Below, piece by piece: positions 1,840 to 18,960 of a stretch of DNA of 64,000 nt. Position numbers and translations under genes: made by a program. This stretch comes from Sycon ciliatum (Eukaryota; Porifera; Calcarea; Leucosolenida; Sycettidae), in the NCBI RefSeq assembly GCF_964019385.1, contig NC_088645.1, positions 13,487,638 to 13,551,637 of the forward strand, written 5' to 3'. The notes beneath the pieces were generated by a model, which saw nothing but the letters and a program-made list of their open reading frames with translations, was not told the DNA's origin and searched no databases. Every line of letters starts with the position of its first letter. The first letter of the stretch is position 1.

Positions 1840-2301
1840 CATTATGTTAGCCTGCCCGTAATGTCTCGATGTGTCTCAGTCTGTGTGTTTTATGATTGTG
1901 GTGCATCATGTGCTGTGTGACGAGCCGAGAGGCGTGAATTTCTGCCATATGCCCCCAGTCATGTATTATCTTTCTCTGCATATGCCGTTTTATCTCGTCT
2001 GAGTTTGTCTTGCTTGGAGTGTCCCATGTGCAGCATGCTTGGTGTTTACTACTTGAGTAGTTCTGTTATACATGACTGTGATTTTATGTGAGTATCGAAG
2101 TTGGTATAGTTGAATTTTTCTCTCATGAAGTTTATCAAAATTTTGTTCAGGATTTTCTTTTATCTTCATTGATTGGTGCTTCACCCATGGGTCATATGGA
2201 TCCTGGTGCTGTGCTTCATGCCTCCTTTCAAGCTTTCTTTTTCTGCTTTGGGAGTGAATAAAGTCGTCATAATATGTAAATAGGCGTCGAGGCGACAATA
2301 G
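1840..2301 (+). other. 3' flank of the LINE; no gene seen
   Basis: This stretch follows the LINE stop codon and probably contains its 3' UTR. I see no poly(A) tail, no simple-repeat tail and no coding potential that can be supported. It ends where the first inverted-repeat module begins. Confidence 0.4.
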
Positions 2302-2453
2302 TTTTAGAATTGCGATCAACAGAACGAGCTGAACCGACATTTCACAAAGGCTTTTATTGTATTCAAAAAACGATATCCACTCGTTTTTTTGGATACAATA
2401 AAAGTCTTTGTGAAATGTCGGTTCAGCTCGTTCTGTTGATCGCAATTCTAAAA
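2302..2453. repeat. Inverted-repeat module 1 (foldback) followed by (AAT)n
   Basis: Left arm 2302-2370 and right arm 2386-2453 are near-perfect reverse complements (for example TTTTAGAATTGCGATCAACA against its complement at the right end) with a very short centre. An (AAT)n tract at 2451-2468 abuts the right arm. No coding capacity. Confidence 0.85.
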
Positions 2454-2510
2454 TAATAATAATAATAATTGCAATTTCAAATTTAGACTTCACGGAGAAT
2501 TTCAAAGTTT

Positions 2511-2657
2511 TAGGAAATTAGAGGCCACATGCCACGTACTGCTCTTTTCTCTCTTTTCTCTTTTCTGATGATTTTTTCTTTCTTTCATATCTGGCTTGCA
2601 AGTGTAGAGTTTCGGAGAGAAAAGAGCAGTACGTGGCATGTGGCCTCTAATTTCCTA
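2511..2657. repeat. Inverted-repeat module 2 followed by (TAA)n
   Basis: Arms 2511-2551 and 2616-2657 are reverse complements of about 41 bp around a 64-bp pyrimidine-rich centre. A (TAA)n tract at 2655-2671 follows directly. Same architecture as the neighbouring modules. Confidence 0.85.
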
Positions 2658-2670
2658 ATAATAATAATAA

Positions 2671-3165
2671 TGTAGAAGGGAAAGAGACATTATGGATACG
2701 AGTTAAGAGTAACTCTCCATCACTGTAACATGATACTTTATACAGTCAGAAAGTGCAATAACTAGGCACAAAACTGACAGAGTACTGAGACATTCGACGT
2801 CCTGACACCTAGCTTCAACACATCTCCGTAGCGCTAACCGACAGCCTTCCAACTTGGAGGGTCTCGTCATCCGGTCCAGTAACAATCGACATTCTTTGTT
2901 CCGTTGGGACTGTAGCTTTTGCTCGTTTTCGTTGCGCTTGCCTTCCCCTCTTTGGTCTTTTCGATAACCTTGAACCTTCCAAGTTGGAAGGCTGTCGGTT
3001 AGCGCTACGGAGATGTGTTGAGGCTAGGTGTCAGGACGTCGAATGGTTCAGTACTCTGTCAGTTTTGTGCCTAGTTATTGCACCTTCTGACTGTATAAAG
3101 TATCATGTTACAGTGATGGAGAGTTACTCTTAACTCGTATCCATAATGTCTCTTTCCTTTCTACA
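2671..3165. repeat. Inverted-repeat module 3, about 195-bp arms
   Basis: Left arm 2671-2864 and right arm 2972-3165 are reverse complements with only scattered mismatches (for example GAGACATTC against GAACCATTC), around a loop of about 107 bp. The mismatches show that the arms have diverged, which argues against a simple read artefact. An (AAT)n tract at 3197-3221 follows. Confidence 0.85.
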
Positions 3166-3221
3166 TTTATTTATGGCTCAACATCCGAGTTTTACAATAA
3201 TAATAATAATAATAATAATAA

Positions 3222-3548
3222 TGGCTCAAGCTGGAAAGACTAACACTTATATAGCGTAAAGATAATTAGATAACAACACTCGTGACAAGGTGGAAAATTA
3301 TCAAGTTTAGCACGACACAAAACTCGAAGGAAAATAATAATAGTGACAACAACATAGTGAGCAAATTAAGTTACATTGTTACCACCTCGACGAGGAGTTA
3401 CACCAAACAATTGTAGCGACAACACATTTTCTTTCTGTACGCAAAGTTCAGGATCTAACTTACGGATATACAAAGCTTCTAACACAGCCAAATGTAACGC
3501 ACATCTACCACGTGACAATATAAGTTTTAGTCTTTCCAGCTTGAGCCA
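3222..3548. repeat. Inverted-repeat module 4 with about 30-bp terminal repeats
   Basis: The left end (GGCTCAAGCTGGAAAGACTA at 3223) is matched by its reverse complement ending near 3547. The interior includes a minus-strand remnant of a Penelope-like endonuclease tail, annotated separately. Confidence 0.7.
3366..3547 (-). pseudogene. Penelope-like element C-terminal remnant
   Basis: The minus-strand translation contains VLEALYIRKLDPELCVQKEN followed by LSLQLFG. This matches the end of the GIY-YIG endonuclease of Penelope-like elements, and it closely resembles the tail of the second PLE at 17645-17764 (LEAVYIRIRDPNLCKKKEN). Only this tail is present. It sits inside inverted-repeat module 4, so it is a fossil rather than a gene. 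Confidence 0.6.
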
Positions 3549-3721
3549 TTCCCTGTATAATCCTTGATGAGAAGGGACCGAAAACGTTCGGATACTTATG
3601 ACAAGTGCCTTATTATGACTGGATGTGTGTTTGCGTGGATATTTGCGACCCATAACTTACCTTCGTTTTAAAGTATTATCCGCCTCCGACCTCTTTAAAA
3701 AAAAAAATAATAATAATAATA
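3549..3721. other. Spacer with (AAT)n tail
   Basis: Between modules 4 and 5. It contains the degenerate hammerhead-like motif and ends in an A-rich run plus (TAA)n at 3698-3721. No gene seen. Confidence 0.5.
3560..3593 (+). ncRNA. Degenerate hammerhead-like motif with palindromic helix III
   Basis: Helix I ATCC (3560-3563) pairs with GGAT (3590-3593). The core reads TTGATGA, so conserved C3 is replaced by T. GAA is followed by the self-complementary AACGTT and then C, giving a UUC cleavage triplet. Helix II is poor. Palindromic helix III is known from dimeric hammerheads. Because of the C3 change I expect this copy to be inactive. Confidence 0.35.
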
Positions 3722-4404
3722 AATGGTTTGCTCCCCACAACGGAGCTCGCGCTATTCCGCCGACTTTACTTGACACTTGACTGACTCACGACTGCCATCC
3801 AGAGCACACGAGAAGTCCATCGAACCTTCGACTCGGCAAACCTGCAAGAAAGCACCACTCCCTGCTCAATACACAGTGTTTCGGGGAATTCACCCCTCAT
3901 CAGTTGAGCTTGTGTAGGCTGAGGAAGATTGTGCCTGAAGAGCACCACTTATATAGTGCTCTCCAGGCACAAACATCACCAGGGATTCAAACTTACAGAG
4001 ACGCTCCGTTTCCAGCGCGACAAACACCTCGTGAACACCAGATAGCAGCGTGAGTCAGTGTCGCTCCTGGACGGTGAGACAGACGTCGAGGACCCTCCGT
4101 CATTCGCAACGCTGTCAGCTCCAAACCAACTAGTCGCAAGCCCGCGCTGGGCACAACAGTACGAAGTAGTGGTTGCAACTTCGGCGATGATTTGTAAGAA
4201 ATGGTTTGCTCCCCACACCGGAGCTCGCACTATTCCGCCGACTTTACTTGACACTTGACTGACTCACGACTGCCATCCAGAGCACACGAGAAGTCTATCG
4301 AACCTTCAGTCAAGTGTCAAGTAAAGTCGGCGGAATAGCGCGAGCTCCGGTGTGGGGAGCAAACCATTTCTTACAAATCATCGCCGAAGTCGCAACCACT
4401 ACTT
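3722..4404. repeat. Module 5: hammerhead-bearing repeat with a terminal direct and an inverted copy
   Basis: The start (ATGGTTTGCTCCCCACA at 3722) recurs directly at 4200-4305 and again inverted at 4307-4403. A related copy lies at 18585-18960. Read on the minus strand the unit carries a TATATAA stretch near 3951 and a hammerhead at 3864-3909, an organisation like the terminal repeat of Penelope-like elements or a non-autonomous derivative. No protein is encoded. An (AAT)n tract at 4405-4426 closes the module. Confidence 0.7.
3864..3909 (-). ncRNA. Type I hammerhead ribozyme (repeat family F)
   Basis: On the minus strand: helix I GCTCAA/TTGAGC is 6 perfect pairs; core CTGATGA; helix II GGGG/CCCC with a 6-nt loop, including the canonical G10.1-C11.1 pair; GAAA; helix III ACA/TGT with a 3-nt loop; and a GUA cleavage triplet, an allowed NUH. 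All conserved core bases are present. I predict a functional self-cleaving RNA. Confidence 0.85.
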
Positions 4405-4489
4405 AATAATAATAATAATAATAATGATGGCTGAACTCTTGTTGTTTCTGCATGAGGAAGAAGAAGCTGGAAGGAAGGAGAAAAAAGCT
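4405..4489. other. (AAT)n tract and short unique spacer
   Basis: A (TAA)n tract runs to about 4426, followed by about 60 bp of purine-rich sequence before the tandem array. No gene. Confidence 0.6.
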
Positions 4490-4675
4490 GGGTATCATGC
4501 TCCTCGGCTTTCGCCTTGTTGAGCACTCTCAGTAGGCTGCTCTAGTGCTGCTGCATCGCGCAATTCCCGCTACTTTTTGTACTTAGAGCACTCTGGCGCT
4601 AGAGCGACGAGCTACCTTAATGTCTGTGGTGCCTCCTTTGCACCATGGCTGGTAGCTCGGACTATTTAGCTTGTA

Positions 4676-4723
4676 GCTGTACTGATGAGGCCTTTATGGC
4701 CGAAACAGCTTGCTGTCTACAGC
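4676..4723 (+). ncRNA. Type I hammerhead ribozyme, array copy 1
   Basis: Helix I GCTGTA/TACAGC (6 perfect pairs); core CTGATGA at 4682-4688; helix II GGCC-TTTAT-GGCC; GAAA at 4702-4705; helix III ACAGC/GCTGT with a minimal loop; cleavage predicted after the GTC ending at 4717. All conserved core residues are intact. Confidence 0.92.
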
Positions 4724-4909
4724 ATTGGGTATCATGCTCCTCGGCTTTTGCCTTGTTGAGCACTCTCAGTAGGCTGCTCTAGTGCTGCTGCATCGCGCAA
4801 TGCCCGCTACTTTTTGTAGTTTTGAGCACTCTGGCGCTAGAGCGACGAGCTACCTGTCTGTGGTGCCTCCTTTGCACCACGGCTGGTAGCTCGGCCTATT
4901 TAGCTCGTA

Positions 4910-4957
4910 GCTGTACTGATGAGGCCTTTATGGCCGAAACAGCTTGCTGTCTACAGC
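4910..4957 (+). ncRNA. Type I hammerhead ribozyme, array copy 2
   Basis: Identical 48-nt ribozyme to copy 1, core CTGATGA at 4916-4922, predicted cleavage after 4951. The ribozyme is fully conserved between units, while the rest of the monomer carries substitutions and small indels. Confidence 0.92.
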
Positions 4958-5137
4958 ATTGGGTATCATGCTCCTCGGCTTTCGCCTTGTTGAGCACTCT
5001 CAGTAGGCTGCTCTAGTGCGCGCAATGCCCGCTACTTTGTGTAGTTTGAGCACTCTGGCGCTAGAGCGACGAGCTACCTTAATGTCTGTGGTGACTCCTT
5101 TGCACCATGGCTGGTAGCTCGGCCTATTTAGCTCGTA

Positions 5138-5185
5138 GCTGTACTGATGAGGCCTTTATGGCCGAAACAGCTTGCTGTCTACAGC
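5138..5185 (+). ncRNA. Type I hammerhead ribozyme, array copy 3
   Basis: Identical to copies 1 and 2, core CTGATGA at 5144-5150, predicted cleavage after 5179. It marks the right end of the tandem array. Confidence 0.92.
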
Positions 5186-5250
5186 ATTGGGTATATATAT
5201 ATACATACATACAAAAAAACACAAAAGGCACAATGGAGTTTTACAGATTT

Positions 5251-5293
5251 GTCGCAACTCGGAGTTTCTTGCTCAATGCAATCATCAGGCGAC
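5251..5293 (-). ncRNA. Type I hammerhead ribozyme, PLE-end copy E
   Basis: Minus strand: helix I GTCGC/GCGAC (5 perfect pairs); CTGATGA; helix II TTGC/GCAA; GAAA; helix III ACT/AGT with loop CCG; cleavage triplet GUU. Compared with copies C and D, helix I has changed on both strands (GTTGC/GCAGC there) and stays paired, which is covariation in favour of a real RNA structure. The closing pair of helix II is U-A rather than the usual G-C. Confidence 0.8.
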
Positions 5294-5452
5294 TATGACA
5301 TGCTCAGTGGGAATTAGCCAATATAAAGCATAGCCTAGCGATAGCTGGTTGGTGTTTGATTCAGCACATAAAATATTGCCATGATGGCCGTGTGGATGGT
5401 TGCTTAGGTGAGGGAGCTATTACAGTACCGCTGGTAGAAGAAGTTTTTCTCC

Positions 5453-5588: not shown

Positions 5589-5630
5589 GCTGCGACTTGA
5601 AGTTTCATGCTCTCACAATCATCAGGCAAG
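5589..5630 (-). ncRNA. Hammerhead ribozyme, PLE-end copy B
   Basis: Minus strand: TTGC before CTGATGA pairs with GCAG after the GTC triplet (4 pairs including one wobble); helix II is short; GAAA; helix III ACT/AGT with loop TCA. It lies in inverted orientation next to copy C, giving a near-palindrome 5556-5715. Confidence 0.65.
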
Positions 5631-5634
5631 AGTT

Positions 5635-5676
5635 GTTGCCTGATGATTGCGAGAGCATGAAACTTCAAGTCGCAGC
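5635..5676 (+). ncRNA. Type I hammerhead ribozyme, PLE-end copy C
   Basis: Helix I GTTGC/GCAGC (5 pairs, one G-U); core CTGATGA 5640-5646; helix II TGC-GAGA-GCA; GAAA 5659-5662; helix III ACT/AGT with loop TCA; cleavage after the GTC at 5671. The first helix II position is a U-U mismatch, which may lower activity. Confidence 0.75.
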
Positions 5677-5715
5677 AAACAAGCCTTGATTGTACTAGTT
5701 GTTCTGTTCTGTATT

Positions 5716-6121
5716 ACGCTCTGCCTCCGCGATGTTGAGCACAGTCAGCACACTGGGTAGACTCTACATCCTCCGGTACATACATACATACATACAAGAA
5801 ACACAAACACACACACACATGCACACTCTAATGTTGCAACCCATCCACCCAGTGATACATATGCTGTTTTTGTCTTTGTTATTTCTTCTATTTCGTGTTT
5901 ATATGTCTGGTTCACACAGGATTCAGCGGAATATCCGATGTAATATTATTGAAGACGACCGATTTAGTCGCCCAGGAGCAGCCCTCAGGTCGTAAATCAA
6001 ATTCATTGGAGGACTTGATATTTCGTACAGCAGCAACGACAGCCAGACGTCCGTTGCTGCCCTATCAATATATCACTTTCGTACCATGCACCACATACAT
6101 ACAATTAATATTCCCGTTAAG
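5716..6121. other. No supported gene; possible intron sequence upstream of endonuclease V
   Basis: Contains a CATA tract and A/T-rich sequence. The first endonuclease V exon, with the N-terminal catalytic aspartate, is not recognisable here. A short open stretch near 5920-6000 does not convincingly match it. Confidence 0.4.
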
Positions 6122-6379
6122 ATAACCGTACCGTACAAATCCGGCTTTTTGGCGTATCGAGAAGTTCAGCATTATGTCACGTTGCTTGAGACGCTTAAGA
6201 AGGAACACCCTCAGTGGAAGCCACAGGTGCTTTTGGTGGATGGCAATGGAATTTTGCACCACAGAGGCTGTGGCTCAGCCAGCCATCTAGGAGTTGTGGC
6301 TGACGTGCCCACCATCGGTGTAGCCAAAACACTTCTTATTCCAGCGGTTCAAGCCCGAAGTGAGCGACAATTTCGTGAA
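6122..6379 (+). CDS. Endonuclease V, central exon
   Basis: The translation starts ITVPYKSGFLAYREV and continues to LLVDGNGILHHRG, SASHLGVVADVPTIGVAK and LL. These are hallmark blocks of endonuclease V, which cleaves inosine-containing nucleic acid and in animals mainly acts on RNA. The glutamate of YRE and the aspartate of VDGNG correspond to the metal-binding acidic residues. A splice acceptor (TTAAG at 6117-6121) and a consensus donor (GAA followed by GTAAGT at 6380) frame the exon, so both ends are phase 0. The upstream exon with the first catalytic aspartate and part of the middle are not visible, so the locus may be incomplete. Confidence 0.85.
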
Positions 6380-6661
6380 GTAAGTGAAGACTTCTTTTTT
6401 TTTCTTGCCCTGGAACATTCGTTAGGAATACTCGCCTCTACTTCCTTATCATTGCCCTGATGATGCACATTGGGCACCATATTGCGCTGTCATTCATTAT
6501 TATTCGTGTCGTGCAACTGAGAGAAATTTTAGGCGATGGAGGTGTTCGCAAGTGGAAAGTACCTAGCTTAGGGTGTGGTCCCGGTGAAGATCATCTGTCC
6601 GTGTTCAAAGTTTAACATTTGCGTCTTATACCATCCGCAGGACAATATCAAACACATTTGA

Positions 6662-7192: not shown

Positions 7193-7822
7193 TGCAATCA
7201 AGGTAATTACTAATTACGGTCTTAAGATGTTCTTTTTGCTCTCTCATCGCTCACAATTTATGTATCATACAAGTTCACAAAGTGTCTGGGGTCTTTGCTG
7301 CAAATAGTGCTCAACACCTGAAAATGGGCAGAGCGTACTACACAAAGGCAGAACTACAGAGATCAAAAATCTTTCTCGTAACTCGGTGTATCACACAAGT
7401 TCCCAGCTATACCACACGGACACGCGACTAAACTCTAATGCAATCCCATTTCTTCCTAGACCATAGCCCTCTAATTACTACCGAACAGCAATATCAACCC
7501 TAGCTCCGCATCAGAGTCTGTCACACGACTAACTGCTGGAACTGTGAAGATAGGCTTCATACAGTCTTCGGCAGAAGATACACCACATCACTACCATTCT
7601 CCGGGAACGCAGCTTTCATATCCTGCGCAGATAATGTAGATACATTCCACGTAAATCGAAGTCAGAGCACGTCGAGAAACGCATCTTCTACATTCCATCT
7701 ACCGACCTCAAGACTCACCTGTGTCATACTGTCCCCTAGAGCGTCGCCGTAGACAGCAGCAGGCAATACTGGCGAGGACTGTGTTCGAGGATGTATTGCT
7801 TTTCAAAGAAAAATCAATCTAG
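7193..7822. other. No gene seen
   Basis: AT-rich sequence with no convincing coding segment on either strand. A short phrase around 7306-7350 (GTGCTCAACAC and a nearby AAAGGCAGA) recurs near 11434-11453 beside the PLE, so part may be repeat-derived. Confidence 0.4.
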
Positions 7823-8571: not shown

Positions 8572-8790
8572 TATTGGTTCAGCCACTGGACTAGTCCAGC
8601 AGCGTCAGTCAAGACAACACCCAACCTCACAGTCAGCACCGCCGTCTGCATCTGCTGATTCCATCCCTAGGGAGCAACATCCTACCCTGAGTAATGCAGT
8701 GGAGAGTCTCTGGACAGGTGACATTGATAATCTGAAGAACACACTGGGCATTGTGTATTACATTATATTATTATTATTTATTCTTCTTTT
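8572..8790. other. Spacer with possible exon fragment and ATT tract
   Basis: After a TTCAG at 8579 a short open stretch (SADSIPREQHPTLSNAVESL) is visible on the plus strand, but it cannot be placed. A TTA-rich tract at 8761-8781 borders the 3' end of the PLE. Confidence 0.3.
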
Positions 8791-8826
8791 ACACAACAGA
8801 ACAACAAGGACAATCAAGGCTTGTTT

Positions 8827-8868
8827 GCTGCTACTTTAAGTTTCATGCTTACGCAATCATCAGGCAAC
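8827..8868 (-). ncRNA. Hammerhead ribozyme at the 3' end of PLE-A (copy D)
   Basis: Minus strand: helix I GTTGC/GCAGC; CTGATGA; helix II TGC-GTAA-GCA; GAAA; helix III ACT/AGT with loop TAA; cleavage triplet GUA. It is in the sense strand of PLE-A, about 350 bases after its stop codon. It ties copies A, B, C and E at 5.2-5.7 kb to this element family. The first pair of helix II is U-U. Confidence 0.75.
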
Positions 8869-9218
8869 ATGAAGATCGGGTGCCGACCATGCCGGTATAT
8901 ATGCCAGGAGAGGGTGGTATAAAAAGCTGTGTGAGACTGTGGGGGCTAGCGCAGTAGCGGTGATGTTTTAGGCAGAGGGCTGTGTGCAGAGTGTGTGGTT
9001 GTTGAAGGCAGGGGCTAGCAGTGCAGTGTGAGCGCGAAGTGTGTGGCTGGTGTGGGCAGGAGGTGGTGAACAATGCGTGTGGATGTTGTAGGCAGGAGGC
9101 TGTAGAGCTAGCAGTGTGATAATAGCGCAATGTAAATGGATATGTCTGGTGTGGGCAGGGTGTTATGAGCAAGGTGTGTGAACGTGAATGGTGTGGGCAG
9201 GAGGCTGTGGAGACATGT

Positions 9219-11377
9219 TTAGGTGACACCGTGGTTTTTTAGGAGATACTTGTTCTCGTGTCGGCACTTGGACACCATTTCGGAGCGCTTGTTGAGGCTG
9301 GACGGTGACCCTAGCGTGTTCAGGATGTGATTCTTTTCTCTGGTACAGAGGGAACACCGCTTCGTGATGTTGGAGTATGCCCGGGCGCGATCTTTTATCC
9401 TCCATTCGACTTCGTATTGGGCGTTGGATTTCTTCAGCTTCCAGATGTAGTTGGAGAACTCAGTGCAGCTGGAGTACTTCTCGTATCTTGTTGTAGTCAT
9501 GTGGTTGGCATGGCGTGACTTGAATGGTGGCGCCGACATACCGGTGTATTCCTTTTTGGTGGGGCCTGACGTTATGGATGCCACATATATCATCTCCGTC
9601 GTTTGGCATTCCCCGTTGAGTGGACAAGATGGCTTGTCTCGGCAGTTGCAGGGCTTTTCCGGTTTTTTCGTTTGCGGGCAGAGGACCGCTTTGTTATGGC
9701 TTTTGATGCGTGCAGCCATATTTGGCATGCAACTGTAGCTTATCTTGATGGTGTTTTTTGTGAATATTTTTCCGAGCTTCGACTGCGGGGGAAAGTGCTT
9801 CTTAATGAGCGCGAGGAATCTTCCACCGATGTTTGTTTTCACATTACGGCTGTAGGGCGGGTTGTACCAAATCACCTTCCTCTTCCTTTTCTTCTTTTTG
9901 CTTGTTTCTGTTTGAACTCTAGCGTGCTAGGGTGGCCGCTGGCGTTGAGGGCCTCCGCGTAGATGGGGATAGCATCACGGAACACCGCCTCTGAGCAGGA
10001 GATGCTTGCCAGTCGGTTGTTAATTCCAGCTGGGATGTTCTTAAGGACTTGCGGTGGGTGATTGGAGTTGACGTTGACATACAGTGGGGTGTCGTTGGGT
10101 TTTCGGTACGGTTGGTAGGTTCCTGTGGAGAGGCTCATTGTGATGTCTAGGTAGTTAACAGCGTTCAGGTTGACGTCTATCGTGATTTTTAGCCCCAGCG
10201 TCTTGAAGGTGTCGATGACAGCTTTCCTTACTTTGTCCGCACTGTGGCCAGTGGCGTTACGGAGGACGGCAAGCCCGTCGTCTCTGTAGAGGCCTACCGA
10301 GCCGCTACTGAAGTGCTGTTCGAGTTTACCCAGGAGGAAGGCGCCGACCAGCTCACATGCTTCAGCGCCATCGAAGGATCCCATGGTAACATCGAACAGC
10401 CCGTCTCTGTTTTTCTTTGCCCATGTTCGGTTAGCTCCGAATAGCAGTGACTGCCTCGCGTGTAGTATTATGTCGGCGTCACAGTCAGGAATTGCCACGA
10501 ACTGCTTAGCGTAGGCGAGGGCTAGGCTCAGCAAGTTTTCGGAAATAGATGGATAGGAATCCACTATATCGAACATCACGAACGTGTGGCTAGCCTTCTC
10601 CTCGATTGCCTTGAACCAGTTTATGACGGAGGATGTGTTTTTCCATAGGTTGATGTTGGGTTTGTCCCGCAGCGCTTCCACTATGCCGCTCAGTATCTTT
10701 CTGCTGATAACGCCTATCTCCGGCTTCGCAGGGTTAATTAGGCGGCATGGTATGTTCCGGGGGAAGTTTTCTTTGTGGTCCTTGATGGTGACGAAAGCTT
10801 CTGCCTTTGCCATGGTGTCGATGCGGTCCTCCAGGCCCTTATCAGCAGCGATTTTCTTGGCCTCGTCGTTGATGGTGTCGTAGGAGCCTTCTGGTGCCGC
10901 TTAGTAGTTTCTTGTGATGTTGTCGTGGGGTAGCTTCCTGTATTCTTCTGGCGGCATCTTGTACAGGTTTCGTGTTTTGTCTGCGGGTACGATTATGTCG
11001 TTGGAGCTGCTGATCGTTTGTATGTCTTCCTTCATCTTGTCCTGTAGTTCGTTATGCACGCTTCGGTAAGTCACGCTGCCAATCATCTCATACATATCGT
11101 CTTCGAATTTCTTCATCTCGTCCACTTGCGGTGGGCATTTTCTTGTTTTGAATCCGAAGTTTTCTCCTTCCTGGTCGTCTTCTTTTCTGTCACCACGTAG
11201 GTAGAATATTGCTCTCCAGCGCATCCTCTTTATGAGTTGTTCCGTCCTTTCAATGAGACGTAGTGTGTACTCCTTGTGGCTGGGCAAGGGGATATTCTTC
11301 AGAGAGTATCCGAGGTTGACGCGCCTTGGGGTGTCCATTGTTGGGGTAGCACAGCTAAGGTAAGAGTGCTCTACCAC
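9219..11377 (-). pseudogene. PLE-A polyprotein: RT plus GIY-YIG endonuclease, one stop and one frameshift
   Basis: Read from 11377: an N-terminal region (LGYSLKNIPLPS, IIVPADKTRNLYKMPPEEY) runs to an in-frame TAA at 10901-10903, then continues in the same frame to 9872 with RT blocks AFVTIKDHKENFP, PCRLINPAKPEIG, FVMFDIVDSYPSIS and the catalytic YRDDGLA. A shift in a purine-rich KR-coding run near 9875 moves to the next frame, which encodes YNPPYSRNVKTNIG, KISYSCMPN, a Cys cluster (CNCRDKPSCPLNGEC) and the GIY-YIG-like domain IYVASITSG then EYTGMSAPPFKSRHANH, ending with CSLCTREKNHIL. YTG stands in place of YIG. The Cys cluster before GIY-YIG suggests the Neptune-like PLE group; that subgroup is inference. 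Confidence 0.8.
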
Positions 11378-11503
11378 GGGAAGTGGGAGCTAATTCACCG
11401 AAGGATGTACCCAGAGTGCTTGACAGTGCTCAACACCACAAAGGCAGAGCGTAATACACAATCTTCTTTTAAAAAGACGACGTGGAGACAATAATCTTAA
11501 TAA
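11378..11503. other. Spacer between the two PLEs
   Basis: Divergent junction of PLE-A (minus) and PLE-B (plus). It may include the 5' leader of PLE-A. No gene or full ribozyme is recognised. Confidence 0.4.
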
Positions 11504-11647
11504 TGCAATGAATATAACTAAATGCGCACTCATATCACAACCATGGGGACGAATCACGTATTCCAGAACGTTTTCTTGTCACCATTATCAATGGAATTCT
11601 TGACTAAAGAGAATTATGAAACTACAATAGGATTTATACACTTGGAT
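11504..11647 (-). repeat. Inverted copy of PLE-B 3' UTR
   Basis: Reverse complement of 17921-18067, for example AATGCAATGAATATAACTAA at 11503-11522 against 18067 downward. It fuses directly to PLE-B coding sequence, so the apparent reading frame starting at 11522 is chimeric. Confidence 0.85.
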
Positions 11648-11930
11648 TTATACTACTTTGAATGCCGACAATGTGGTAGTCGGTATGTTGGTAGGACCCT
11701 TCAACATCTGTCCGAACGTATCAAACAACACGTGCCACTCTCAATATTGTCACAGGCAGCTAGGTCCTCCCGACCAAAGCGTGGCCGACCACGTAAGCAT
11801 CCGACTCCACTGTCCGTTCCGGCAGAGGCTTCTGCTCCACAAACGGTGTCTCGGAAAAACCAACACAGCACGCAGAAATCGGGAACAAACATTAATGTAA
11901 ACAAAGACGAACACTGTGTCTTATCTTCAT
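11648..11930 (+). pseudogene. PLE-B GIY-YIG endonuclease, N-terminal half
   Basis: The translation YFECRQCGSRYVGRTLQHLS then ERIKQHVP contains the CxxC and GxxYVGRT core typical of the PLE GIY-YIG nuclease, with catalytic Y and R visible. A basic insert follows with an AT-hook-like KRGRPRKHP. The frame ends in the transposon inserted at TA 11931. No reverse transcriptase is present upstream, so the copy is 5'-truncated. Confidence 0.75.
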
Positions 11931-11932
11931 TA

Positions 11933-12954
11933 GACACCCTTAGGGCGCGTTCAGACTGGCGTGAATAGCCGCCGGAAAGCTGCAGCGTAATCCCGGGAAT
12001 CTCAATCACACTGCACGTGTATCCCGCTGGAATGGCCAGTACATGTGAAGCTTCGACATTTGAAAAATTTGAGTTGACTAAGTTTGAGTTGGATATCAAA
12101 ATAAACTAATTCAGTCTGTTGAGATGCTGGATCATTGTGCATTTGCTTGTGCTTGTCGACGGAAAGAATACTATGTCCGGAGTGTTTGGTGCTTGGGTGG
12201 CATTCATCCGCTCCGCGATCAGAGTATGCTTCTCGTTCGCAGTAACGTTTTGCCTGCAGAGCGGCCCGCAAAAATCACCACGTACAGCTCCATGAACTCC
12301 CTCTCCATTGCTGAGTCGAACAAAGATTTCGGCATGATGGGAGAAGTAATTCGTTGGCAGTCTAGAAGTCAAAACTCAAAACTCAAAAGCATGCAGTCAG
12401 ACTGCAAGAGTAGAGGCTGAAATAAAACGAAAAGACGGAACATGTGCTGCAAGGATATCAAAAGCGCTCCGCGTGCCGCCGGAATCTGCATTCCACTGGC
12501 CTGCAGAGTGGTGGGAAACCTTTTCCGTGTTTACGCTGGCGGGAACGTCACGTGGGCGATTCACCTTGACAACTTTCACATTCCGCTTGTTTTTTACGCC
12601 AGTCTGAACGCGCCCTTAGCAAAAAACGTTATGTTGTAAGTTGTAACAGTATTATCGTAAGAAGGAAAATACCGTGATTTGGGTTCGACCTTTAGCAAGA
12701 TGCACGCTATTTTTAGTACGCTGTTGCCACGAGAGTAGCTTTGATTTCGCGCGGTACAACCATTTTTGTCACCATATACGCGATACAAGGTGAAATGAGT
12801 ACGGACTATGCAATATTTGGCTAAAACACGTACCGTTGGTCACAACGATAAATCAGCCCCCATAACGTTTATACGCTGCAGCTTCAACGCTATTTGGGTG
12901 ATCAAGGTACGAGTACCGTAAAAAATAGCGTTACCGTTGTTTGCTAAGGGTGTC
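11933..12954. mobile_element. Outer MITE with TA target duplication (Tc1/mariner-like)
   Basis: The left end GACACCCTTAGCAAA (reconstructed across the inner insertion) matches the reverse complement of the right end TTTGCTAAGGGTGTC, and TA flanks both (11931-11932, 12955-12956). About 350 bp without the inner element. Non-coding. The TA duplication suggests mobilisation by a Tc1/mariner-type transposase. Confidence 0.75.
11943..12615. mobile_element. Inner MITE with TTA target duplication, inserted in the outer MITE
   Basis: Perfect terminal repeat GGGCGCGTTCAGACTGGCGT at 11943 with its complement ending at 12615, flanked by TTA at 11940-11942 and 12616-12618. Removing it and one TTA restores the outer MITE end (CACCC-TTA-GCAAA). 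The 3-bp TTA duplication fits PIF/Harbinger-type transposition. 673 bp, non-coding. Confidence 0.85.
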
Positions 12955-18477: not shown

Positions 18478-18584
18478 CGAAAATATTCTCTTTAACGCTA
18501 CATCGCTGGCAATAACAAGCTTGTCATTATAGGCATTAAGTTAATTGTTCCAACCAGGAACACACGCCTCTTGCCGAACTTGAC

Positions 18585-18960
18585 ACTTGACTGACTCACG
18601 ACTGCCATCCGGAGCGCACGAGGAGCACGTCGCATCTTCCTCTCGGCAAACCCGCAAGAAAGCACCACTCCCTGCTCAATTCACAATGTTGCGGGGAATT
18701 CACCCCTCATCAGTTGAGCTTGACTAGGCTGAGGAAGATTGTGCCTGAAAAGCACTACTTATATACTGCTCTCCTGGCCAAACCATCACCAGGGATACAA
18801 ACTATCAGAGACGCTTTGTTTCCAGTGCGACAAACACCTCGTGAAGCCCCAGGTGAGTCAGTCAAGTGTCAAGTTCGACAAGAAGCGTGTGTTCATAGTT
18901 GGAACAATTAACTTAATGACTATTACCGCCGAAGTCGCAACTTCTAAGTTCGTATTGTCA
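18585..18960. repeat. Second copy of the hammerhead-bearing repeat family F
   Basis: Closely similar to 3770-4180 in the same orientation, including AAGAAAGCACCACTCCCTGC and the CCAGGGAT region. Ends share TTGACACTTGACTGACTCAC at the left and its complement GTCAAGTGTCAA near 18861, so this copy is bounded by a short inverted repeat. Confidence 0.75.
18674..18719 (-). ncRNA. Mutated hammerhead (family F, second copy)
   Basis: Equivalent to 3864-3909 but GAAA has become GCAA (the essential A13) and helix III has lost pairing. Helices I and II and CTGATGA are intact. Predicted inactive. Confidence 0.65.

Follow-up and report, generated by a model that had tools for sequence, protein, structure and literature searches.

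How animal retrozymes move is the question raised by a tandem array in a 64,000-nt stretch of the Sycon ciliatum genome (hereafter the window, which means the whole stretch analyzed). According to a 2020 review, no conserved motif is known that reveals the partner of these elements (PMC7761336). The explanation that we consider probable, taken as a whole, has the array arise as one insertion of a non-coding retrozyme of S. ciliatum. The following features of this retrozyme (family A) were placed in the window:

4489..5191, + strand: retrozyme array of family A, made up of three units plus 4 nt from the beginning of a fourth
4489..4725, + strand: unit 1, 237 bp
4726..4959, + strand: unit 2, 234 bp
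4960..5187, + strand: unit 3, 228 bp
4676..4723, + strand: type I hammerhead 1, cleavage predicted after 4717
4910..4957, + strand: type I hammerhead 2, cleavage predicted after 4951
5138..5185, + strand: type I hammerhead 3, cleavage predicted after 5179
5180..5191, + strand: 12 nt beyond the cleavage site (TACAGCATTGGG), the last base being the usual family 3' end, ATTGGG

The three head-to-tail units of 237, 234 and 228 bp described in a first-pass annotation were recovered at 4489-4725, 4726-4959 and 4960-5187, and they are 97-98% identical to each other outside gaps. No stop-to-stop frame of at least 120 aa overlaps 4489-5191, so the array is non-coding. The annotation had also given each unit an identical, complete 48-nt type I hammerhead. 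The paired-helix scan agrees at three positions, with all three 48-nt sequences identical and a GUC site in each, and it returned 0 matches in 100 first-order Markov simulations of the window. Helices I, II and III have 6, 4 and 5 possible pairs, and the loop of helix II reads UUUAU. Rfam RF00008 matches the array three times at 25.9 bits, below the gathering score of 48.5. Cleavage is predicted to release monomers of 234 nt (4718-4951) and 228 nt (4952-5179). When the consensus was folded as a circle, forcing the ribozyme fold cost 1.9 kcal/mol; the constrained fold, viewed for the loop 1-loop 2 tertiary contact of canonical type I hammerheads, shows an internal loop and an outer helix I.

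That the three ribozymes are identical says little on its own, because the 9 substitutions and 3 indels of the window array would all fall outside 48 of about 236 nt with a chance of about 0.07. We set it aside as proof of selection, being too weak alone, and used a family-wide test instead. Across 69 units of 37 arrays, substitution events number 11 over the 48 nt of the family A ribozyme and 107 over the other 189 nt (p = 0.0019). The ribozyme is conserved relative to the rest of the unit.

By structural tests on the sequence, the array is a metazoan non-LTR retrozyme in all but the descriptive trait of low G+C. As in the elements of Acropora millepora, Mytilus and axolotl, there is one type I hammerhead per unit, and the units are non-coding, head to tail and a few hundred bp long (PMC7229834). 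The tandem units of 150-450 bp and the many copies of metazoan retrozymes were both found here, and the known size and design claimed at first reading hold, coral retrozymes measuring 220-240 bp (PMC7229834). Unlike the retrozymes of that paper, with G+C under 50%, the Sycon array has 53%; we treated low G+C (<50%), a trait of metazoan non-LTR retrozymes, as descriptive and not as defining. The host differs too. Hosts named in the parts cited are cnidarians, mussels, rotifers, flatworms, annelids, crustaceans, insects and amphibians, and a word search of the main text found no mention of a sponge (PMC7229834). Plant LTR retrozymes are likewise ribozyme-bearing, non-autonomous elements, and their circular RNA would be a further likeness if circles form in Sycon; they differ in their type III hammerheads set in LTRs, 4-bp duplications and Gypsy-type partner (PMC4918200, PMC7229834). 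Around the window array, no LTR-like repeats other than the units were reported.

Copies elsewhere in the genome, which the first-pass annotation had proposed to look for, are many and dispersed. The exact 26-nt ribozyme core occurs 393 times in the 538-Mb assembly and its reversed control 0 times. The first 100 listed cores form 75 clusters (59 single, 10 double, 4 triple, one of four and one of five). A unit search, in which the best 40 of 1245 candidate regions were scored, gave 109 matches, and the 40 best-scoring arrays, a set biased to long and well-kept copies, were examined with their flanks. They make up 42 segments, from which 41 rows were parsed (L074 was excluded, the exact motif being absent); two of the 41 are artefacts, L075 running into N and L087 ending one base early.

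The 3' ends of family A agree: GCTGTC is followed by TACAGCATTGGG and then by target DNA, mostly TA. TA directly follows the end point in 37 of 39 rows, or in 33 of 35 without the duplicated loci L059, L076, L095 and L096. The 5' ends vary. Target duplications of at least 8 bp were seen in 24 of 41 rows, against 5.5% when flanks of different loci were paired; they often measure 9-17 bp, and several sit in TA or TATC repeats and are hence ambiguous. In other metazoan non-LTR retrozymes, too, duplications exceed 4 bp when present (PMC7229834). A second, less biased sample consisted of the first 20 single-core places in listing order, 18 of which were judged (L124 and L134 run past the fetched stretch). 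Twelve of the 18 end exactly at ATTGGG, followed by TA in 8, TG in 2, AA in 1 and TC in 1. Three end nearly there (one base changed, one base short and four bases short) and three otherwise (L120, L121 and L126); L122 and L123 have flanks in common. Under the same strict rule, a duplication of at least 8 bp appears in only 4 of the 15 parsed rows of this sample.

The same pattern was observed in a sister family, family C, found at locus L015 with a 228-bp unit, a ribozyme helix II of GTTC...GAAC and a TA repeat as its setting. Scoring of the best 40 of 474 candidates gave 130 matches, 35 of which (query included) are top-scoring over all 228 bases and lie on nine contigs. One array has nine units identical to the query and another about 15 units. 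Judged from these sequences, family C looks young, or recently active. Ten loci were fetched and nine judged, the tenth running into N. All nine end at ATTGAG, with TA next in 7, TG in 1 and GA in 1; this usual 3' end lies 11 nt beyond the cleavage site. At three targets outside repeats there are duplications of 13-15 bp, in one case with filler between duplication and unit. Twelve family C rows on five contigs share a 5' end (query position 179), either a preferred stop or duplicated loci.

At the window array, the 5' end falls at unit phase 9, that is, 8 nt past the cleavage position, and the 3' end at 5191, 12 nt past the last cleavage position and directly before TATATA. These positions contradict the statement of the first-pass annotation that the array is bounded exactly by the ribozyme boundary. 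The family 3' ends, which lie beyond the cleavage site, led us to reject that boundary as the insertion boundary. We infer that 5191 was the start point of reverse transcription.

A second locus, L059, 179 kb from the window array, shares its left flank and resembles it closely in the right flank. It holds two units, which shared variants match to window units 1 and 3. The window insertion is thus one that was duplicated along with its surroundings, with one unit gained or lost, and we read the window locus as an old copy. The unit differences in the window array are not evidence of separate source RNAs. No recognizable target duplication was found at either the window array or its duplicate.

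What RNA was copied? The expectation that inserted units are cleavage products ending at the cleavage site fails, since the usual 3' end lies 12 nt (A) or 11 nt (C) beyond it with the junction intact; a linear cleaved monomer was therefore not the template of those copies. An insert that runs 12 nt past an intact junction implies that the RNA was a circle or an uncleaved multimer, copied from one internal point. The template that we prefer is an RNA whose ribozyme junction is sealed, which most likely means a circle. Differences at informative columns average 0.84 within arrays and 2.16 between them (0 of 1000 label permutations as low), and this sharing of variants within arrays favors one circle copied repeatedly, although it is also compatible with a multimer.

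That a PLE (Penelope-like element) enzyme instead copies the linear, uncleaved multimer transcript of an older array, with the ribozyme as a processing device or relic, strikes us as rather unlikely, though it is the strongest competitor. The fixed 3' end alone would arise from such a transcript as well, for it requires just an intact cleavage junction, and in vitro the PLE of Anolis uses unprocessed RNA and inserts without ribozyme cleavage, ribozyme mutants leaving insertion unchanged (PMC11167929). Some arrays also mix variants internally: 10 of 17 arrays with at least two full units, the window array included, differ at one or more informative columns. What argues against the multimer is that the ribozyme is more conserved than the rest of the unit (p = 0.0019), that arrays are more homogeneous inside than between, one having nine identical units, and that the 5' ends are unevenly spread. 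Among 52 insertions, phased without duplicates, artefacts and deviant loci, these ends are scattered over the unit but 12 fall in phase 1-17 (3.7 expected, p = 0.00025, for an interval picked after seeing the data), as if copying stops near its start after whole turns. It is very improbable that the array is ordinary satellite DNA that owes its spread to unequal crossing-over or to circular DNA. Array size does change at the DNA level, as the two units of L059 against three in the window demonstrate, and the family C array of about 15 units would suit a satellite; yet the copies are dispersed, with one end fixed, one variable and target duplications at many sites, and 59 of the 75 clusters among the first 100 cores consist of a single core.

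The circle that we favor would need a partner enzyme, and PLEs occur in the Sycon genome as they do in the genomes of other metazoan non-LTR retrozymes (PMC7229834). We scored the best 92 of 1533 candidate PLE matches: six are 98% identical and keep an unbroken frame of 723 aa, and of the many at 50-61% identity a large proportion has open frames of at least 700 aa. The window itself contains a disrupted PLE and a solo terminal piece:

8792..11461, - strand: PLE, disrupted copy, between copies of TAAAAGAAGA at 8782-8791 and 11462-11471
9219..11338, - strand: PLE coding region, reverse transcriptase, with a GIY-YIG-like C-terminus by eye
11425..11450, - strand: PLE leader hairpin 1
11365..11390, - strand: PLE leader hairpin 2
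8827..8868, - strand: PLE hammerhead (by eye), upstream of the short 3' end ...GTTGTG, then TA
5635..5776, + strand: solo PLE terminal piece with a hammerhead by eye (5635-5676), the short-end position and a tail (5705-5776) to ...CTCCGG

The part of the coding region matched by protein P0001 has one stop. The structure model of P0002, a 97%-identical relative (mean pLDDT 74.6, pTM 0.52), matches reverse transcriptases with E from 1.8e-6 and low TM-scores, bacterial enzymes coming first and telomerases from rank 11. The motifs YRDD and FDIVxFYPS are conserved in the PLE frames. At their C-terminus, a Y-G-T-FK-R-H pattern was seen by eye, which may be a GIY-YIG endonuclease motif; Pfam scans gave no family, and the PDB sequence search with the PLE frame returned nothing useful either. 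A frame at 11522-11968 (+), adjoining the PLE on the opposite strand, has a weak GIY-YIG match that falls short of the Pfam cut-off (E 0.0029).

PLE terminal pieces were collected as family E, the best 40 of 1339 candidates being scored. They have two alternative 3' ends, a short one (...GTTCTG or ...GTTGTG, then TA) and one after a tail of about 60 nt (...CTCCGG). The tail start is present in 20 of 21 pieces (20 fetched and the one in the window) and absent from L116, and 16 of the 40 scored regions have an adjacent match on the opposite strand. The window PLE shows the traits of its type: a hammerhead (by eye) in the terminal repeat, an optional tail, and tandem or inverted terminal copies. 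In L100, L101 and L107, the PLE tails carry a GAGCACTGTCAGCACACTGG stretch about three times in tandem.

Family E resembles the Poseidon PLE of Anolis (PMC11167929), which has two possible 3' ends near the ribozyme with the tail between them, AT-rich targets and a start inside the RNA; in that system there are two sites at which copying begins, and cutting and extension affect both DNA strands. The Sycon retrozymes differ from Poseidon in having no ORF. In Anolis the start site is part of an AC-rich stem-loop within the ORF and has no homology to the target (PMC11167929), whereas the Sycon start is in the leader, with a TA mostly shared with the target.

What ties the retrozymes to the PLEs is a pair of hairpins. 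Families A and C both have twin hairpins of the form GCTC-stem-loop-stem-NN-GAGCACT, about 65 nt apart (box spacing 65 nt in A and 67 nt in C). In the window array they are placed as follows:

4499..4527, + strand: hairpin 1 of unit 1 (GCTC...GAGCACT)
4566..4592, + strand: hairpin 2 of unit 1, a variant whose outer 5' letters are not GCTC
4736..4764, + strand: hairpin 1 of unit 2
4802..4830, + strand: hairpin 2 of unit 2 (GCCC replaces GCTC)
4970..4998, + strand: hairpin 1 of unit 3
5027..5054, + strand: hairpin 2 of unit 3 (GCCC replaces GCTC)

We compared these with about 190 bases upstream of 20 PLE frames, hand-picked from the 92 matches and not independent (five are of one sub-family, and there are three look-alike pairs). 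In 15 of the 20 leaders, a short way ahead of the start codon, there are two GAGC(A/C)C boxes with a spacing of 57-65 nt; three leaders have one box (L167, L172 and L173) and two have none (L163 and L168). Both hairpins are complete (GCTC-stem-loop-stem-NN-GAGC) in 14 leaders, and in L165 the second only. The letters of the inner stem change between families while pairing stays. With inner letters shuffled as the control, the 27 distinct instances, three of which are overlapping second readings, average 3.48 Watson-Crick pairs in the inner stem against 1.30 (highest of 1000 shuffles, 1.81), and at least 4 pairs form in 15 of the 27 instances, compared with at most 3 in shuffles. Hairpin 1 of family A has just one strict Watson-Crick pair in this test, and single-sequence folding tests of the hairpin were not significant.

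The position of the hairpins is shared as well. Families A and C and PLE family E all have their first GCTC beginning 7 nt after the end point, and 0 of 6502 other TA-starting 50-mers of the window fit the joint motif. GCTC-N10-24-GAGCACT occurs six times in the 64-kb window: three times in the array, twice in the PLE leader and once in a short PLE-like stretch at 7334. A single shared stretch of about 40 nt had been considered as homology between A, C and family E. Its significance was mixed, the number of shuffles (of 500) scoring as well as the direct alignment being 0 for A-E1, 1 for A-E2, 0 for C-E2 and 117 for C-E1, and we replaced it by the twin hairpins. These suggest, on sequence grounds, PLE enzymes as the mobilizer, with a PLE protein as the putative binder. 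The partner retroelement raised in the first-pass annotation can thereby be proposed from hairpins common to retrozymes and PLE leaders.

Two other accounts of the partner were weighed. A LINE-type non-LTR retrotransposon, moving retrozymes by target-primed reverse transcription, would explain why 3' ends are fixed, 5' ends truncated and targets duplicated over 9-17 bp, all of them LINE-like features; 15-bp duplications around Nematostella repeats have been likened to LINEs (PMC4918200), and the window has endonuclease/reverse transcriptase frames of the non-LTR type. In a comparison made with PLE leaders, however, both the end point and the twin hairpins correspond to those of PLEs, and we judge a LINE quite improbable. 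Alternatively, the hairpins could be common by descent from PLE leaders, or through binding of a host factor, the PLE enzyme not moving retrozymes now. A shared motif indicates relation and not use, and a 2024 review proposes that retrozymes descend from PLEs (PMC11722881). This account nonetheless seems unlikely to us, less so than the LINE, because the distance from end point to hairpin 1 is that of the PLE short end, the target mostly starts with TA in both retrozymes and PLEs, and family C looks young.

The cycle that we propose has a PLE enzyme copying the retrozyme from a circle. Multimeric transcripts would cleave themselves at the hammerheads, whose structure and conservation were described above, and a monomer would be sealed into a circle, probably by a host ligase as reported in other animals (PMC7229834). 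The PLE reverse transcriptase/endonuclease would then bind the twin hairpins beside the ribozyme, open a TA-rich site and begin copying at a point 12 nt beyond the sealed junction and 6 nt short of hairpin 1; the end point and its position relative to hairpin 1 are seen in genomic copies. Copying would go round the circle, over distances that differ between insertions and at times amount to several turns, and would thus yield the pattern observed in the genome, a fixed 3' end and a variable 5' end, often with a duplication of about 9-17 bp. The window copy may represent about three turns, later changed by mutation and probably also by unit gain or loss. As a whole, this cycle is likely; cleavage, circularization, binding and current activity are its predicted parts.

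Other hammerheads lie near the array. The paired-hammerhead scan also found ribozymes at 3864-3909 (-) and 5251-5293 (-), and three more were recognized by eye at 5589-5629 (-), 5635-5676 (+) and 8827-8868 (-), which the scan passed over because their helix II starts with a U-U mismatch. The ribozyme at 3864-3909 belongs to an element at 3717-4404 that has a direct repeat at 478-bp spacing and an inverted arm, lies between AAT repeats and has a short and a long 3' end. The element has matches in 7 of 28 loci compared and a fragment at 18578-18845, and by its looks it is the terminal piece of another PLE family. The minimal hammerhead at 5251-5293 is just downstream of the array, and a similar one flanks the family C array in L015. 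Further along, 5996-6460 is an Endonuclease V-like coding exon (Pfam), perhaps of a host gene.

In the whole assembly, the loose pattern CTGATGA-N5-30-GAAA has 49,638 occurrences, whereas the pattern reversed has 5,296. Most of the 49,638 are candidates only; among the first 100, several distinct families of hammerheads can be made out. At L010, a head-to-head array of a 352-bp hammerhead family (2296-5409), with three ribozymes on the minus and six on the plus strand, is flanked on each side by a copy of AGTATGACATGC, an arrangement suggestive of priming from both target strands. Helix III of this family could have a palindromic tetraloop. Such twin priming is seen at one locus only and was not applied to family A. 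L016 and L017 hold a hammerhead family with helix II GCCGT...ACGGC and helix III ACGTACGT, with two copies at 591-bp spacing in L016.

The metazoan non-LTR retrozyme is itself a known kind of element; what is new here is that the internal end is fixed and that a twin hairpin is present and is shared with PLEs. Both the twin hairpins common to local PLEs and the fixed 3' end past the cleavage site are Sycon features absent from the parts of PMC7229834 cited here, and no retrozyme sequence linked to a PLE recognition element was found in the open-licence literature searched. Whether the model extends to such animal retrozymes generally is, in our estimate, evenly balanced: they may be minimal PLE replicons, made of a ribozyme, a start site and twin hairpins with no ORF, copied as circles until the enzyme stops, so that an array would record one rolling reverse transcription event and the twin hairpin would be the clue to the partner that has been lacking. 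The covariation of the twin hairpins, together with the end point and how far it lies from hairpin 1, defines a concrete, testable recognition signal, and does so in an animal of an early branch that has a retrozyme family of apparently young age. Such a signal would permit a biochemical test and could explain why hammerheads are kept in both PLEs and retrozymes.
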